In this document: positions 25,830 to 33,740 of the stretch, one piece after another
Layout of the letters: every line of letters starts with the position of its first letter
Position numbering within the stretch: position 1 is the first letter of the stretch
Source of the DNA: Pseudomonadota bacterium
GTDB lineage: Bacteria > Desulfobacterota > Anaeroferrophillalia > Anaeroferrophillales > Tharpellaceae
DNA: 34,528 bases
Direction: 5' to 3'
Assembly: GCA_011049115.1 (NCBI GenBank)
Contig: DSCM01000001.1
Span: 1 to 34,528 of the forward strand
Position numbers and translations under genes: made by a program
Notes under the pieces: model-generated
What the model was told of the DNA's origin: nothing
Database searches by the model: none
The model's input: the letters and a program-made list of their open reading frames with translations, nothing else

Positions 25830-27934
25830 CTAAAACTTAACCCGACAGCCGACCTCAAAAGAAACGCCGGGACGCGGATAACCGTCGGGAAGCTCACCGC
25901 TGGTACAGGCATAGGCGTAATCTTCCGAAAAGAGATTATGGGCGGCGACAAAAACCTCGACCCCCGGCGGCAGCAGGGCGTGATTGACAGCCCGCAGGGT
26001 GACATCTGCAAGCAGATAGTCGGGAAAACCTGCGCATGCCACCCTGGCGACCCTCTCGGTACGGCCGACATACTGACAAGTCAGATTGAGATTGAGACCG
26101 GGCCACAACCTGAAATTAAGCGCCGCCAGCGAGAGCCAGCGGGAAATCCCGGCCAGGGGCTCGCCGTCCTGATCCCGGGCATGAGCATAGGCGAGGTTGA
26201 AACGCAGGTCGCCGCCTTCGAGAAAACCTGAGAAACGCCGCACCAGGCCGAATTCAACCCCATGGGTCACCACCTCGTCCTCATTGGCAAACATAATCTT
26301 GCCGGCAGTCACCCGATTCGTTTCCTCCCTGATCAGGTCTTCGAATTCATTGCGGTACAAAGCCAGGCTCAGATCGAGATCGCGCCCCAGTTCAAACTCA
26401 AAATCAAGCTCGTAACAGCGGCCGGTTTCCGCGTCAAGCTCGGGGTTACCCAAAAAAGGACCGCCCTGCGCCTGTTTGTAAAGACTGCGAAAGGAAGGCG
26501 CGGCAAAAGATTCACCGTAAGCGGCCTTGATGCGAAACCACGGCCGGGGCTGATAGACCAGGGCCAGACGGGGGGAGACTTCCGATCCAAAATCCTGATA
26601 ATGATCAAAGCGTAACCCGGCCACCAGAAAAAGTTGTGCGTTAAGACGCCACTGATCCTGGGCGTAGACCGAATAAAACCGGCGCCGGGCTTCCGCCATC
26701 CAGCTGAAATGATCCGTGACGTCGATCAGCTCCGGCAGGGGCAGGGGATCGAAATTGGCCCTGAAACTGACCTGATCCAGCACCGTATAGCGAAACTCCC
26801 CCCCGCAACTGAACAGATGATCGGCGCCGAGCTGCCAGTCAAACTGCAGATTCGCGGTTAAGGCCCGCACGACACCGCTCTGAATCTCCAGCTTGCCGTC
26901 CGGGAAAACCTCGCCCTGGGGCCCGGTAAATCCCGGCGGCCGCAGACCCAATTTAGAATCAAGAACATGGCGGTCGAAACTGATTCGGGGTCTGACCTGC
27001 AGGGTGCCGTCAAAAAAACTCTTTTTCCAGCTGAGTTCGCTCCAGAAATAACTGCGCTCCATTTCGGTCTCGTCGCTCAGGGCCTTGCCGGGGCCGAAGA
27101 AACCGCCGTCACGGTGATCGAGATACTGCAGCTGCAACTGCAGGTCATCAATGGCGAAGCCGCCATTGATATCGCCGCGCTCGACCCATTCCCGAGTGGA
27201 GCCCGGAGCTAGGGAAACGCCGGCGTTCAGCGGATCATCACTGAGCGCGTCCCGCTTGACCCGCACTCCGGCCCCATCGCTGTTGAGATAGTTAAGATTC
27301 CCCCAGGCCGCCAGGCCGCCGTCTCGAATCGCCCCTTCCAGATTGTAGCGCTGCAACCGGTGCGAACCGGTTTTCGCGTCCAGGCCCAGACGGTCGGGCT
27401 CCCCTTTGCGGGTGATCAGATTAATCACCCCCAGCATCGCGCTCGAACCATACAGCGCCGATCCGGCTCCGCGAAAAACATAGTCGCGCCGCCGGTCCAG
27501 TCACTGTTGACCGGGTGATCGTTGATCATGAATAAAATCTTTTCCGAAGCGTTGCTGCGATAGCCGCGCATAACGACCACCGGATAGGCGTTAAAATCAA
27601 AAACCACCTCGATGCCGGGCACCAGACGCAAAACATCGGTCAGATCGCGGGCTCCGCGCCGGCGCATCTCATTGTTTTCAATAACCGTCACCAGCCCCGA
27701 AACCTGATGCAGGGGCTGTTTGGTCCGGGTCACAAGCTCGGTTTCCCCATAAAACAAGCCCAGCATTTCCTGCTCATCCCCGGCGGCCGCCAGCAGAACG
27801 GGAGTGAAGTCTGCCGAAAAACCCGGGTTCTCCGCTTTCGACCAACCGGTCCGGGCAAACAAGGTCGCCGGAAGACACAGAAAAAGCACCAGGCCGGCAA
27901 CCAGGAACAACCTTAAATTTTTCATTTTATTCAT
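25830..27934 (-). pseudogene. TonB-dependent outer-membrane receptor, reading frame broken in the plug
   Basis: The N-terminal part (ATG 27934, ribosome-binding site GGGAG) has a signal peptide (about 1-27). Its plug domain includes VSGLVTVIENNEMRRRGARD, LVPGIEV and MRGYRSNASEKILFMINDHP. After TGGATMFF the frame shifts. The other frame resumes at FRGAGSALYGSSAMLGVINLITR and continues through a 22-stranded-type barrel ending in the usual terminal Phe (CRVKF). About 15-17 conserved plug residues normally found between these parts (the segment ending IERVEVxRG) are missing. A deletion of roughly 50 bp, not a multiple of three, is thus more likely than a single-base error. The junction lies near an A5 run at 27474-27478. 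It is 19 bp downstream of the acyl-CoA synthetase gene. If real, no functional receptor is made; assembly error is the alternative. Confidence 0.8.
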
Positions 27935-27953
27935 ATCACTCCCATGCCAGGCT

Positions 27954-30614
27954 TCAGGATAGCTGCAGACGAATCCGAAAAAGATCTTCCTCGCTCTCGA
28001 CGATTTCAAAACCGAAGCCCTTGACAAAACGCATCATGGCGACATTATTACGCAGCACCAGGCCGAAAATTTCTTTAATCCCGCGATCCCGGGCGATATA
28101 GATCAGTTTTTCCATCAGCAGCCGACCGACCCCGCTGCCCTGCCAGGCGTCGGTGACCACCACGGCGAATTCATATTCCTCGCTGTGGGGATAGTAAATC
28201 AGGCGGTTGACGCCGATACTGATTTTTTTACCCTCCCGTTCAATCTGCGCGATAATCGCGACATCGCGATCATAATCAATCTGGGTAAAACGGGCCATCT
28301 GCTCCGGCGTGATCTCCTCCCGAAAGGAGAAAAAACGAAAATAACGGGTCTGGCGGGAGAAACCCGAAATCATCTCGTGGTGAGCCGCGGCGTCCTCGGG
28401 TTTGATCGGGCGGATCAGAACCCGGGTTCCATCCTTCAAGGTCTCCGTAAATTCATACTGGTTGGGATAGGGAATCGTCGACAGATGATGCGGAGAACGC
28501 AGGTCCCGGTCGACCAGGGTGATTTTCGCATCGACAATACGGAAGTCGTTCGCGGCGATCGTCAAGGGATGCAGGATCAACTCGGCGAGTTCAGGCAGAT
28601 CGACCACCATCTGCGAGACCCGCATCAGGATTTCCTCCAGCCGGGCTTGGGTGAAGGGCCGAATCCGGGAGCATTCGGAAAGTTTGGTCCGGGAAATCAG
28701 CTTGCCGGCGAGCTGACGGTCCAGCGGCGGCAGAATCACCTCCTCGGCCGCCGCCACCCGAGCCTGCAGACCGCCGGAACCGATAAAAAGATAGGGCCCG
28801 AATTCAACATCCCAGCGACTACCGAGATTGATTTCATAATCGACATTTTCGACCATCGCTTCGAGGGTAAAGGCCGCGCTCTGACAGGCATCCTTTTCCA
28901 ACCGTTGCAGAAGTCTGACCGCAGCCTCGATCACCGCCTCCCGGCTGCGCAGATTAAGCAAAACCCCGCCGCGGTCGCTTTTGAAAAAGCTGTTCCCGGA
29001 ATCAAGCTTGAGAACCACAGGATAGGAAAAATCCTGGGCCCGTGCCAGGATTTCCGCCAGCGAGGAAAAACGCCGGACCGGATTGACCGGCAGGCCGTAA
29101 AGTTCGAGCAGCTGCCGGGAGGTGGCGGAATCCAGCCGGGAAACCCCGGCCGCCAGCCATTTTTCAACCTGCCGGCGCGCCTCGTCCAGGGCGGTGCGAT
29201 CATAGCCCAGTTCCCGGCTGTAACGTTGCGGAATCACCACAAGATTGGAAAGTTTTTCATGGTAGCGAAAAGCGTAGTGACAACTTAAAACCGCTTCCTC
29301 CACTGAAAAACAGATTTTGGTGCGGGCATCGGTCAAAGCCTGGGCTGAGACCTCATAACTTGAAGGATCCCCACCCAGCCAGACAAACAGCAGATTGACT
29401 TCGGCCGCCGCAGGCAAGACCTTGATGCGGGGCACCAGCCGCATCGGTTCCAGCCATTGGCTGTGCACCATGATCACCAGCAGCAGGTCAAACTCGGCCG
29501 CCTCCAGACAGAGGTCAATCACCTTAAGGTAACGCTGATCATCGGCATCAGCTGCGATACAAATCGGATCGAGATTCCCGGAATAGGGCGAGATATAGCG
29601 GCCGATCTTCTCTCCCAGCCCAGGGGAAAGGGCGCTGACGCTGATACCCTTACAGGCCAGACCGTCGACGGCAAGCACCCCCAGGCCACCGGAATTGCTG
29701 ATAATGCCCAAGCGCCGCCCCCTGGGCAGGCGGCCCCTGACCAGATGATCCCCGGCATCCAGCAGTTCCTCGACAGTCTCGACGCGAATGATTCCGGCCC
29801 GGCGAAAAGCGGTATCGTAGACCCGGTCCTCGCCAGCCGGACAACCGGTATGTTTTCTGATCACCTCGCGACCGAGCTCACTCTTGCCGACACGAATCGC
29901 GACGATCGGCTTGATGCGCGCCACCGAACGGCAGGCGCTCATGAACTTCTTCACGTCCTTCAGATTTTCAATATACAGTAGAATACAGCTGACTTTAGCC
30001 GACCAGCCCAGATAGTCGATCATGTCGCCGAAATCGATATCACTCAAGGCCCCGAGGCTGACGACATGACTAAAACCGATCCCTCGTTTCGCGGCCCGGC
30101 CCAGAATCGACGAAATCACCGCTCCGCTCTGCGAGAGCAGGGCGATACCGCCATCCTGAACCGGGATTTCAAACAGAGAGACATTGAAATTCCGGGCCGG
30201 CACCACCATCCCCAGAGAATTGAAACCGAGCAGGCGCAGCCGGTTTTTTTTTGCCCGCCGAATGGTCTCGGCCTCATGGCGATCATCGCCGCGCGAACCT
30301 TTCCCGGTCATGATGATCAAAGCGGCAACCCCAAGACGCCCGCAGAGATCGACCAGCTCCGGCGTTTGCGCCAGCGAGAGCAGGGAAACCACCAGGGGCG
30401 GCGGTTCCGGAATCTCCGTCAGGGCCCTGAAACCCGGCTCCGGCGGCTTCGAAGCTGAAGCCGCCGGAGCCGGGCCGATCAGGTACACCGGCCAGGCCCC
30501 GGGCTTCAGATTGGCGAACAGCTGTTCTGCCTTACCCTGGGAACCGCAACCGCAAGCTTCGACCACCGCCACCGCTCCCGGGGTAAAAAGTTTATCCAGA
30601 TTATAAATACCCAT
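27954..30614 (-). CDS. Acyl-CoA synthetase (NDP-forming)-like / GNAT acetyltransferase fusion (Pat/PatZ-like)
   Basis: The 886-residue protein joins a CoA-binding domain (about 1-130), succinyl-CoA-ligase-like domains (about 150-460), an ATP-grasp domain (about 490-700) and a C-terminal GNAT domain (about 725-886; acetyl-CoA loop QGSGVGRLLM). This matches the architecture and length of the protein lysine acetyltransferase Pat/PatZ. In Pat the synthetase catalytic His is described as replaced by Asn. Here a His occupies the expected place (His255 in KHTG, followed by VYDTAFRRAGIIRVE). ADP-forming acyl-CoA synthetase activity is therefore possible. It is the first gene of the minus-strand unit, with a promoter candidate about 50-80 bp upstream. 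Whether it serves the sensory genes or is only cotranscribed cannot be told. Confidence 0.9.
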   Translation of the reverse strand: MGIYNLDKLFTPGAVAVVEACGCGSQGKAEQLFANLKPGAWPVYLIGPAPAASASKPPEPGFRALTEIPEPPPLVVSLLSLAQTPELVDLCGRLGVAALIIMTGKGSRGDDRHEAETIRRAKKNRLRLLGFNSLGMVVPARNFNVSLFEIPVQDGGIALLSQSGAVISSILGRAAKRGIGFSHVVSLGALSDIDFGDMIDYLGWSAKVSCILLYIENLKDVKKFMSACRSVARIKPIVAIRVGKSELGREVIRKHTGCPAGEDRVYDTAFRRAGIIRVETVEELLDAGDHLVRGRLPRGRRLGIISNSGGLGVLAVDGLACKGISVSALSPGLGEKIGRYISPYSGNLDPICIAADADDQRYLKVIDLCLEAAEFDLLLVIMVHSQWLEPMRLVPRIKVLPAAAEVNLLFVWLGGDPSSYEVSAQALTDARTKICFSVEEAVLSCHYAFRYHEKLSNLVVIPQRYSRELGYDRTALDEARRQVEKWLAAGVSRLDSATSRQLLELYGLPVNPVRRFSSLAEILARAQDFSYPVVLKLDSGNSFFKSDRGGVLLNLRSREAVIEAAVRLLQRLEKDACQSAAFTLEAMVENVDYEINLGSRWDVEFGPYLFIGSGGLQARVAAAEEVILPPLDRQLAGKLISRTKLSECSRIRPFTQARLEEILMRVSQMVVDLPELAELILHPLTIAANDFRIVDAKITLVDRDLRSPHHLSTIPYPNQYEFTETLKDGTRVLIRPIKPEDAAAHHEMISGFSRQTRYFRFFSFREEITPEQMARFTQIDYDRDVAIIAQIEREGKKISIGVNRLIYYPHSEEYEFAVVVTDAWQGSGVGRLLMEKLIYIARDRGIKEIFGLVLRNNVAMMRFVKGFGFEIVESEEDLFRIRLQLS

Positions 30615-30693: not shown

Positions 30694-31026
30694 GTATTTC
30701 TATGCGAATTTTCCATTAAAAACAATGAGTTACATCATTTTTACAATATACGGATAGACTTATATCGAAACACCGACCTCTTGGGAACCAAAAATCGCGC
30801 CGCCGAAAACCCGCTTTAAAAAAGTTGACGCTGATTTTAAATTCATACTTTTGCCTGATAGACATCATCCTTTGATTTTGTTAATTAACCCACCAGTGAA
30901 GATACAGAATCAGTGGCGGATCGGTTTGCAGCTCAGGGTTGGTGGAAAAAACCACCGAACAATCGTAAAATCATGCTTTTTAAGTTCAAAGACAACCTCT
31001 TCAACCAGGAAAAAAGGAAAAGAAAA
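30694..31026. other. Divergent AT-rich intergenic region before the VPxPx-CTERM gene
   Basis: This 333-bp stretch has no gene I can support. A possible plus-strand -35 TTGACG lies near 30829, without a well-spaced -10. A short GGTGG/CCACC stem with an A6 loop lies near 30945-30960. AAGGA at 31014-31018 is the ribosome-binding site of the next gene. Confidence 0.4.
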
Positions 31027-31770
31027 ATGAAAAAATCGGTATGGCTCGGTCTTGCCTTGGCGGGTTTACTCATTCTTGCCGGAATCCCGGCGCTGGCTTA
31101 CGATTACAGCGCCATCGGGGTAAACATCACGGTTTTTGACGGTGTCGGCAATGGTTCAACCAATTGGTTCGGCGACCAGGAAGATCAAGAAGTGGAATAC
31201 AGCTCCCAATATAACGCCGTCACCGGTCAGGACTGGGACATGGAAGCCTTCTTCTGGAAAAACGAGACCTCCACCCTGACCATGATCGGCGGCTACGATC
31301 TGATCGACGGCAAAGACGGTATTAAGCCCGGCGATGTTTTTCTGGATGTCGGCAGCAATGGCAGCTGGGATTACGCGATTTCCTTCAGTAATACGGGAAC
31401 CGCCACCTGGTATGCGCTCGACGCCTCCAGCACGTTGATCCCCACGACCCACTTCCCCACGTCCGACCCCTGGAAATATGCCAGCGGAGCCACTGACAGC
31501 GGGAGCTTGAATTCACTGTACACCGCTTTTTTCAGCACTGATTTAGCCGGGGTCGCCACCGGAGGAAATCACAACGCGATCGCCTTGGATCTTTCCGGTC
31601 TCACCCTGGGCACCAGCTTTACCGTCCATTTCACGATGGCCTGCGGCAACGACAATCTTGTGGGCAGAGTTACGCACGACACCCCGAACGTCCCCATTCC
31701 CGGAGCCGTCTGGCTGCTGGGTTCCGGCTTTGCCGGTCTGGTGGGACTGCGCCGTCGTCGGCAGAATTAA
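31027..31770 (+). CDS. Exported protein with VPxPx-type (PEP-CTERM-like) C-terminal sorting signal
   Basis: The 247-residue product has a signal peptide (MKKSVWLGL..., cleavage near ALA/YD). Its C-terminal tripartite signal is VPIPGAVWLLGSG, then a hydrophobic stretch and a terminal RRRR cluster. This resembles the VPLPA-CTERM variant of PEP-CTERM sorting signals, which exosortase/archaeosortase-type enzymes process at the inner membrane. The mature region is rich in Gly, Ser, Thr, Asp and aromatic residues and looks beta-rich. Its function was not recognised. ATG 31027 follows AAGGA with 8-nt spacing; an upstream in-frame GTG (30913) would bury the signal peptide. No exosortase gene lies in the window. 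Confidence 0.85.
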   Translation: MKKSVWLGLALAGLLILAGIPALAYDYSAIGVNITVFDGVGNGSTNWFGDQEDQEVEYSSQYNAVTGQDWDMEAFFWKNETSTLTMIGGYDLIDGKDGIKPGDVFLDVGSNGSWDYAISFSNTGTATWYALDASSTLIPTTHFPTSDPWKYASGATDSGSLNSLYTAFFSTDLAGVATGGNHNAIALDLSGLTLGTSFTVHFTMACGNDNLVGRVTHDTPNVPIPGAVWLLGSGFAGLVGLRRRRQN

Positions 31771-31910: not shown

Positions 31911-32768
31911 CTAGGTCAGGGCCAGGGCACCGATCTTCGGCCCCAGAATTTTCTCCAGTTTCTTCAGGGCGTTGCTTTCAAGCTGCCGCACGCGCTCCCG
32001 GGTAATCCCCAGTTCGTCCCCGACATCCTGCAAAGTCTTGTCATCGTCCCCTAGAAAACGGCCGGCGACCACCTGCCGTTCCCGCAAGGTCAGCTCACGC
32101 AGCGCCTGAGCGATCAGGCGACGGCGGTCGGTCTCGGTCTCCCGCAACAAAAGGCTTTCCTCCTGATCTTCACTGTCGTCCGCAAGCAGATCAAGATAGA
32201 TGGTCTCGCTGTCGGCCAGGGAACAATCCAGGGAAAAATCACGGGCGTTGAGCCGCTGACAGAAATCCCGCACCTTGGCGTCTTCTTCACGACTGTCGGC
32301 CAGGGCCGTGATTTCCGCCGTATCCAGCTCGTCCCCGTTGAGAAAACCCCGCACCTTGCCGAGTTTGAAAAAAAGTTTTTTCTGCAGCTGCGTGGTGCCG
32401 ACCTTGACCAGGCTCCAGGAACGAATGATATAATCCTGAATATAGGCGCGAATCCACCAGACCGCATAGGAAATCAGGCGATATCCCCGATCCGGATCAA
32501 ACTTTTTGACGGCCCGCATCAGGCCCATGTTGCCTTCCTGAATCAGGTCCATCATGCGCATGCGATACCCCCGGTATTCACTGGCGATCTTGACGACAAA
32601 ACGCAGATTGGCGGTAACCAGCCGATGCGCGGCGGCCAGCTCGTTATTTTTTTTATAACGCAGGGCGAGTTCGTTCTCCTCTTCCTGGGTCAACAGAGGA
32701 ATCCGACTGATCTCGGTCACATAACGTAAAAACGAATCGGTATTAGTCAAAGATAAGGATTTTTCCAT
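31911..32768 (-). CDS. rpoH: RNA polymerase sigma-32 factor (heat shock)
   Basis: RpoH directs RNA polymerase to heat-shock promoters. The 285-residue protein has region 2 (RFVVKIASEYRGY, DLIQEGNMGLMRAVKKFDPDRGYRLISYA, WWIRAYIQDYI) and the RpoH box QKKLFFKLG (129-137). The RpoH box distinguishes sigma-32 from other group 3/4 factors. Region 4 ends with GDELGITRERVRQLESNALKKLE. I chose ATG 32768 because GGAGG lies 8 nt upstream; a GTG three codons earlier sits too close to it. The predicted promoter overlaps a perfect CIRCE operator, so HrcA repression is expected. The bidirectional terminator follows the stop by 23 bp. Confidence 0.95.
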   Translation of the reverse strand: MEKSLSLTNTDSFLRYVTEISRIPLLTQEEENELALRYKKNNELAAAHRLVTANLRFVVKIASEYRGYRMRMMDLIQEGNMGLMRAVKKFDPDRGYRLISYAVWWIRAYIQDYIIRSWSLVKVGTTQLQKKLFFKLGKVRGFLNGDELDTAEITALADSREEDAKVRDFCQRLNARDFSLDCSLADSETIYLDLLADDSEDQEESLLLRETETDRRRLIAQALRELTLRERQVVAGRFLGDDDKTLQDVGDELGITRERVRQLESNALKKLEKILGPKIGALALT

Positions 32769-32787
32769 TGCAGCCACCTCCCGGACA

Positions 32788-32826
32788 GCTATATTAGCAC
32801 TCTCTGTTTTAGAGTGCTAATATAGC
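32788..32826. promoter_or_regulatory. CIRCE operator (HrcA binding site) upstream of rpoH
   Basis: The core is exactly the CIRCE consensus: TTAGCACTC (32794-32802), nine bases, GAGTGCTAA (32812-32820). The symmetry extends to 15-bp perfect arms, GCTATATTAGCACTC (32788-32802) and its complement (32812-32826). It lies about 20 bp before the rpoH start codon and overlaps the predicted -10, the usual layout for HrcA repression. Confidence 0.95.
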
Positions 32827-32846
32827 ATGAAGCCATCATAAATCAA
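32819..32846 (-). promoter_or_regulatory. Predicted rpoH promoter, overlapping CIRCE
   Basis: On the minus strand TTGATT (32846-32841), a 16-bp spacer and TATATT (32824-32819) preceded by TG form an extended -10 promoter. The region upstream (to about 32885) is very AT-rich and could act as an UP element. Transcription would start inside the operator. Confidence 0.6.
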
Positions 32847-32926
32847 GAAAAATCTCTATAATTATTTATAATTAAATAATCCTAACCAAAAAGGTTCAGA
32901 AAAATAAGGGCCGCGATTTTCAGCCC

Positions 32927-32956: not shown

Positions 32957-33074
32957 TTCAGCGGAAGAACTTAAAAAAACGGGAGCCCGCCAAAAAGCCG
33001 CAACTTGCAAAAGGAAAACCAGGGGCGCGCCGGGCGCCACAGCCCCATACGAACGATTGCGAAGGAAATTCATC

Positions 33075-33740
33075 ATGACCGTCACGAGCAGAAATCTATC
33101 CAGGCCGGGAACCGTGGTTTTCGTCCGCAGCGCCCGGGCCCGGCGCATGAACCTCAGGGTTCAGGCCGATGCGACGATTCGCGTCGCCATTCCCCCCGGA
33201 GGCTCCCTGCAGGCGGCGGAAGCCTTTGTCCGCAGCCGCCAGGACTGGATCGAACAACAGCTGCGACAAAAACAGGAAAGCCTGAACCTAATCGCCGGTC
33301 TGACGGTCCCCTCCGACGGTTTCGACCCGGACCAGGCCCGAACAAAAATCACGACTCGGCTGCGCGAGCTTACGGCCGCACATAACTTTACCTATCGGAA
33401 ACTGAATTTTCGCAACCAGAAAAGCCGCTGGGGCAGCTGCTCGGCAAACAACGATCTGAGCCTCAATCTCAAACTCGCCCTGCTGCCCGACGACTTGCTT
33501 GACCTGGTACTTTTGCATGAGCTGGTCCATACCGAGATCAAAAATCACGGCCCCGGATTTCACCACCGACTGGCGGCCCTTTGCCCCGACGCCCGGGCTC
33601 TGGACCGCCGGCTGCGCCAATACACCGCTCTGCTGCGCCCACCCCTGACACCGTTCATCACCACCGAAGAAAGCTCTTTCCGCGAACCCGAAAAAGACGA
33701 ACCTTGCGACCCTCATCAAGTTCATCCGCGGGATGGTTGA
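33075..33740 (+). CDS. YgjP/SprT-like zinc metalloprotease (DUF45 family)
   Basis: The 221-residue product has the DUF45/YgjP signature. RNQKSRWGSCS (about 113-123) is followed by LPDDLLDLVLLHELVH with the HExxH zinc motif (His148, Glu149, His152), and then NHGPGFH with a third His (158). The N-terminal half (VRSARARRMNLRV...) is a typical beta-rich lead. The cellular substrate of this family is not well defined. ATG 33075 follows AAGGA with 8-nt spacing. The acidic C-terminal tail (after about residue 194) overlaps by 83 bp the 3' end of the convergent membrane-fusion gene, an unusual arrangement. Confidence 0.9.
   Translation: MTVTSRNLSRPGTVVFVRSARARRMNLRVQADATIRVAIPPGGSLQAAEAFVRSRQDWIEQQLRQKQESLNLIAGLTVPSDGFDPDQARTKITTRLRELTAAHNFTYRKLNFRNQKSRWGSCSANNDLSLNLKLALLPDDLLDLVLLHELVHTEIKNHGPGFHHRLAALCPDARALDRRLRQYTALLRPPLTPFITTEESSFREPEKDEPCDPHQVHPRDG

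Follow-up and report, generated by a model that had tools for sequence, protein, structure and literature searches.

In the window, the 34,528-nucleotide stretch of DNA analyzed here, the gene for an RpoH-type (sigma-32) RNA polymerase sigma factor is preceded by a perfect CIRCE operator that overlaps its predicted promoter, and HrcA very probably represses rpoH in this organism, judging from sequence comparison. The first-pass annotation had proposed a cascade in which release of HrcA raises the level of sigma-32. The half of this cascade that concerns repression of rpoH is supported by (i) the presence of hrcA in the genome, (ii) the conservation of the operator, and (iii) the co-occurrence of the operator with hrcA, whereas the half that concerns the targets of RpoH is presumed.

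The rpoH gene and its promoter

The product of rpoH exceeds the cut-off of the NCBIfam RpoH subfamily model NF005143 (298.7 bits; cut-off 241), and rpoH is the sole locus in the genome to do so. The top-scoring of all models is TIGR02392, the NCBI equivalog model for proteobacterial RpoH, at 303.1 bits, which is below its cut-off of 323.1. The protein contains the Pfam domains Sigma70_r1_2, r2, and r4 as well as the RpoH-box-like sequence QKKLFFKLGK, the consensus of the box being similar to Q(R/K)KLFFNLR. Convergent to rpoH, at 30913-31770 on the plus strand, lies the gene of a protein carrying a VPLPA-CTERM sorting signal of the PEP-CTERM type. Two other features of the window are a TonB-dependent receptor in two overlapping frames (25830-28027, minus strand; plug 27425-28027, barrel 25830-27437), which appears to be split by a frameshift, either of the gene itself or introduced by the assembly, and an 886-aa ADP-forming acyl-CoA synthetase fused with a GNAT acetyltransferase domain (27954-30614, minus strand).

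Table 1. Features of rpoH and its upstream region in the window
Feature	Position	Strand	Basis
rpoH, RpoH-type (sigma-32) RNA polymerase sigma factor, 285 aa	31911-32768 (ATG at 32768; stop ends at 31911)	-	NF005143, TIGR02392, Pfam domains, RpoH-box-like motif
Shine-Dalgarno-like GGAGGTGG of rpoH	32776-32783 (approximate)	-	Read from sequence
Full inverted repeat, 15-bp arms and 9-nt center	32788-32826	none	Read from sequence, compared with relatives
CIRCE operator TTAGCACTC-N9-GAGTGCTAA, perfect	32794-32820	none	Consensus scan; also upstream of rpoH in relatives
-10 hexamer TATATT with upstream TG (extended -10)	32819-32824	-	Promoter scan; shares first 2 bp of CIRCE
-35 hexamer TTGATT (TTGCAT in most relatives)	32841-32846	-	Promoter scan and relatives; spacer to -10 of 16 bp
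Near-invariant AT-rich block AATTATAAATAATTATAGAGATTTTTC	32847-32873	-	Kept beside rpoH in the window and 8 family relatives

The operator matches the CIRCE consensus with 0 mismatches and a 9-bp spacer, and its distance to the rpoH ATG is approximately 25 bp (Table 1). It is the only CIRCE match in the whole window when up to 3 mismatches are allowed, while dinucleotide shuffles of the window give an expectation of 0.01. The surrounding inverted repeat reads, on the plus strand, GCTATATTAGCACTC (32788-32802), TCTGTTTTA (32803-32811), and GAGTGCTAATATAGC (32812-32826), with both 15-bp arms perfect; the exact CIRCE core and 15-bp arms that the first-pass annotation had placed just before rpoH are thus borne out, with the right coordinates. 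In relatives, the 6 bp by which each arm extends past its 9-bp CIRCE half-site do not preserve the perfect repeat.

The predicted rpoH promoter consists, on the minus strand, of TTGATT, 16 bp ending in TGC, and TATATT. The -10 hexamer ends in two bases that are also the first two of the operator, which confirms the earlier claim that CIRCE overlaps a predicted extended -10. Since the two elements share these bases and the predicted transcription start falls at about the end of the left arm, bound HrcA should block RNA polymerase. Across 9 family members, TATATTAGCACTC and the TG of the extended -10 show no change, and in most CIRCE-bearing rpoH loci a -10-like TATAT or TATTTT overlaps the CIRCE left arm or lies just ahead of it.

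The AT-rich block AATTATAAATAATTATAGAGATTTTTC adjoins the upstream side of the -35 hexamer and contains a direct repeat of 10-bp period (AATTATAAAg AATTATAgAG ATTTTTC). When the 9 family members are aligned on the operator, 31 of the 46 positions from -66 to -20, counted from it, are invariant, with the AT-rich block almost letter-perfect, and beyond 66 bp upstream of the operator none of 64 positions is invariant. The block occurs once in the genome when up to 3 mismatches are allowed, and a related AT-rich block in L013 is positioned, as judged by eye, about two helical turns farther upstream. Its position may be that of an UP element. The block is possibly an activator site instead, as its sequence is more constant than expected for an UP element.

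HrcA and CIRCE sites in the genome and in relatives

The genome that contains the window (2.64 Mb in 143 contigs, 97% complete) was searched by pattern and by family. It encodes the repressor that the first-pass annotation had presupposed, as HrcA scores 270.5 bits with TIGR00331 (cut-off 197.2). The hrcA gene is broken over contigs: it runs off C129, and its final codons are found on C2, followed there by grpE, dnaK, and dnaJ. This arrangement suggests a single hrcA-grpE-dnaK-dnaJ operon split by the assembly. Upstream of hrcA and on the same strand, C129 (1-5881) carries lon, followed by two ORFs, hrcA, and then grpE-dnaK-dnaJ on C2; in G003, G009, and other relatives lon lies no more than a few kb from a CIRCE. 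It is possible that lon and hrcA-grpE-dnaK-dnaJ form a protease-chaperone cluster.

With up to 3 mismatches allowed, the 2.64 Mb contain exactly 3 CIRCE sites, all of them perfect: that of rpoH and two more, at groES-groEL (C104) and hrcA (C129). A reversed control pattern yields 0 matches in the same genome search. The groE and hrcA sites adjoin the sigma-70-like promoters TTGATT-17-TATATT and TTGACA-17-TATTTT, respectively. The detectable HrcA regulon therefore comprises groESL, hrcA-grpE-dnaK-dnaJ, and rpoH. Similar numbers are seen in 18 genomes of the same family or order, which mostly have 3 CIRCE sites each (range 1-3; up to 2 mismatches).

Conservation of the site was assessed in the best 80 rpoH loci from other genomes, in which CIRCE was sought up to 400 bp upstream with at most 3 mismatches and a spacer of 8-10. 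CIRCE is found upstream of rpoH in 43 of these 80 loci, nearly always 42-68 bp from the ATG, while the flanking sequence of the 80 loci, 390,599 bp in total, serves as a control and contains 1 match. The operator is present at the rpoH promoter in every family relative sampled, and the arms do not vary at any of their 18 bases among the 9 aligned family members, whereas 1 of the 9 spacer bases is invariant. In L043, the genome of which has hrcA, the CIRCE upstream of rpoH is perfect but has a spacer of 8 bp (TTAGCACTC-TTTAATGA-GAGTGCTAA). The gene upstream of rpoH is YgjP-like and divergent in the window but co-directional in relatives; because the neighbors vary while CIRCE and promoter stay, the conserved unit is the promoter block and not the neighborhood.

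The nearest named relatives of the window belong to Candidatus Tharpella, which was described from Auka vent sediments (PMC9213671). By this comparison, the candidate operator at rpoH spans Candidatus Tharpella-type bacteria, Anaeroferrophillacea, Desulfuromonadales/Geobacteraceae, and other "deltaproteobacteria". The suggestion of the first-pass annotation that the arrangement may be lineage-specific holds if the lineage is taken as broad and ancient, but not for a narrow one, as many related lineages share CIRCE at rpoH.

The presence of hrcA was determined in 49 genomes, 24 with and 25 without an rpoH CIRCE. Among the former, hrcA is found in 23, the exception being the draft genome L063, in which none was found; among the latter, it is missing in 23, while L033 and L076 have hrcA. 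The direction of this association is the one that HrcA control of rpoH would produce. Its significance (Fisher p = 1.2e-10, before any kinship correction) overstates the independent evidence, because the CIRCE state changes only 2 times over the 81 rows of the RpoH tree, where shuffles need 27, and few independent events are therefore involved. The small number of changes also indicates that the rpoH CIRCE is an old trait, held by or absent from whole clades. It is absent from the Syntrophaceae/Smithellaceae clade, the tested members of which are without hrcA.

Proposed control of rpoH and alternative explanations

It is highly likely that the rpoH CIRCE is a working HrcA operator, the release of which frees groESL, hrcA-grpE-dnaK-dnaJ, and rpoH, with sigma-32 then driving further promoters. 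At normal temperature, CIRCE would be occupied by HrcA, which would cover the -10 and start-site region of a promoter of the housekeeping (sigma-70) type and keep rpoH expression low. Heat or misfolded protein would titrate GroEL or inactivate HrcA, and the loss of HrcA would free the three units together. The added sigma-32 would steer RNA polymerase to further heat-shock promoters, its target genes being presumed. The operator, its overlap with the promoter, HrcA, the two further CIRCE sites, and the conservation are observed, whereas the binding of HrcA, its release by heat, feedback through GroEL, and the genes targeted by RpoH are inferred; GroEL feedback is known for the HrcA of other bacteria.

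The promoters that RpoH itself would recognize were sought in several ways. No convincing promoters of the E. coli sigma-32 type (TTGAA-N13-16-CCCCAT) were found in the genome; the strict pattern gives 9 matches, most of which do not precede genes, versus 1 match of the control. In 12 family genomes, several clpB loci share a conserved TTGACA-type promoter in their upstream regions, and footprinting of the lon upstream regions of 12 family genomes for RpoH promoters revealed nothing clear.

The inverted repeat could instead exert its effect in RNA, as a hairpin in the rpoH leader that sets mRNA stability or serves as an RNA thermometer, with no DNA operator involved. If transcribed, the whole repeat would fold strongly (-30.7 kcal/mol, z = -5.1). 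However, the -10 hexamer overlaps the left arm, so transcription would start at about the end of that arm, and a transcript from there would be without the CIRCE hairpin (-12 kcal/mol, z = 0.09). This speaks against control at the RNA level. Moreover, RNA pairing alone would require neither the invariance of the arm letters in the family nor an exact match to the HrcA operator, and the rpoH CIRCE accompanies hrcA across genomes. Control at the level of RNA is thus considered very unlikely. The operator could also be a relic that has been retained by chance or through its overlap with the core promoter, HrcA having no present action on rpoH. The CIRCE-bearing draft genome in which hrcA was not detected would agree with such a loss of function, and in these uncultured bacteria the action of HrcA on rpoH is a prediction. 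Yet the arms are invariant where the 9-bp spacer between them has diverged almost wholly, the -10 hexamer accounts for the first two bases only, and hrcA is present in the genome of the window, such that a relic carries very little probability.

A palindromic operator can serve either side, and as the upstream neighbor in the window is divergent, CIRCE might chiefly control that gene, which encodes a YgjP-like metallopeptidase (33057-33740, plus strand), with rpoH a bystander. The start of the metallopeptidase gene is, however, about 240 bp away, and no promoter-like site on the plus strand passed the promoter scan. In the eight relatives of the family for which an upstream ORF was in range, the neighbor is a different, co-directional gene, and CIRCE remains with rpoH; its proximity to the rpoH ATG extends to a far broader set of loci. 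A principal role in metallopeptidase expression is accordingly extremely improbable. On balance, the HrcA-to-RpoH hierarchy, with CIRCE overlapping or abutting a sigma-70 extended -10, is probably an old architecture of the "deltaproteobacterial" phyla that goes with hrcA and is missing from lineages without hrcA (Syntrophaceae, Smithellaceae), and the AT-rich element of the Tharpella family may bind an activator.

Relation to known heat-shock systems

The operator sequence, the HrcA family repressor, and the placement at promoter and start site are all shared with the HrcA/CIRCE system of Bacillus subtilis, which acts on the groESL and dnaK operons. Unlike in B. subtilis, which to our knowledge has no RpoH-type alternative heat-shock sigma factor, the predicted regulon described here takes in the gene for such a factor. 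As in Escherichia coli, a sigma-32-type factor gene would head the heat-shock response, but a transcriptional repressor is predicted for rpoH here, unlike for E. coli rpoH. E. coli RpoH is controlled mainly through mRNA structure, protein stability, and chaperone/FtsH feedback. E. coli has no HrcA and is not among the control genomes matched in the HrcA search. Geobacter RpoH was reportedly the subject of a study by Ueki and Lovley in 2007.

HrcA control of rpoH is not new, having been predicted in 2004 for Geobacter sulfurreducens, where a perfect CIRCE was located at -51 of rpoH with a score of 7.28 (Rodionov et al. 2004; PMC545781, Table 8). The same work reports candidate CIRCE sites on groESL in all delta-proteobacterial genomes with the system and on hrcA-grpE-dnaKJ in Geobacter and Desulfuromonas (PMC545781). 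The predicted G. sulfurreducens regulon thus consists of the same three units as that of the window, namely, rpoH, groESL, and hrcA-grpE-dnaK-dnaJ. The present case differs in that the lineage is Candidatus Tharpella-like, and in that the 2004 site was found at rpoH in one studied genome, whereas CIRCE is observed here at 43 of 80 related rpoH loci and tracks hrcA. No later paper on CIRCE at rpoH was noticed in the literature searched, which lies mostly outside subscription journals. The breadth of the rpoH CIRCE and its co-occurrence with hrcA appear to go beyond the statements in the papers examined.

As a tractable organism, G. sulfurreducens would allow a simple test of the link between HrcA and rpoH. 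The usual description of bacteria that possess HrcA as well as RpoH gives them two heat-shock circuits, which are separate or overlap in part. With a conserved HrcA operator at rpoH, one of these circuits would feed into the other across a large set of anaerobic lineages, in which HrcA would govern the sigma factor as well as both chaperone machines.
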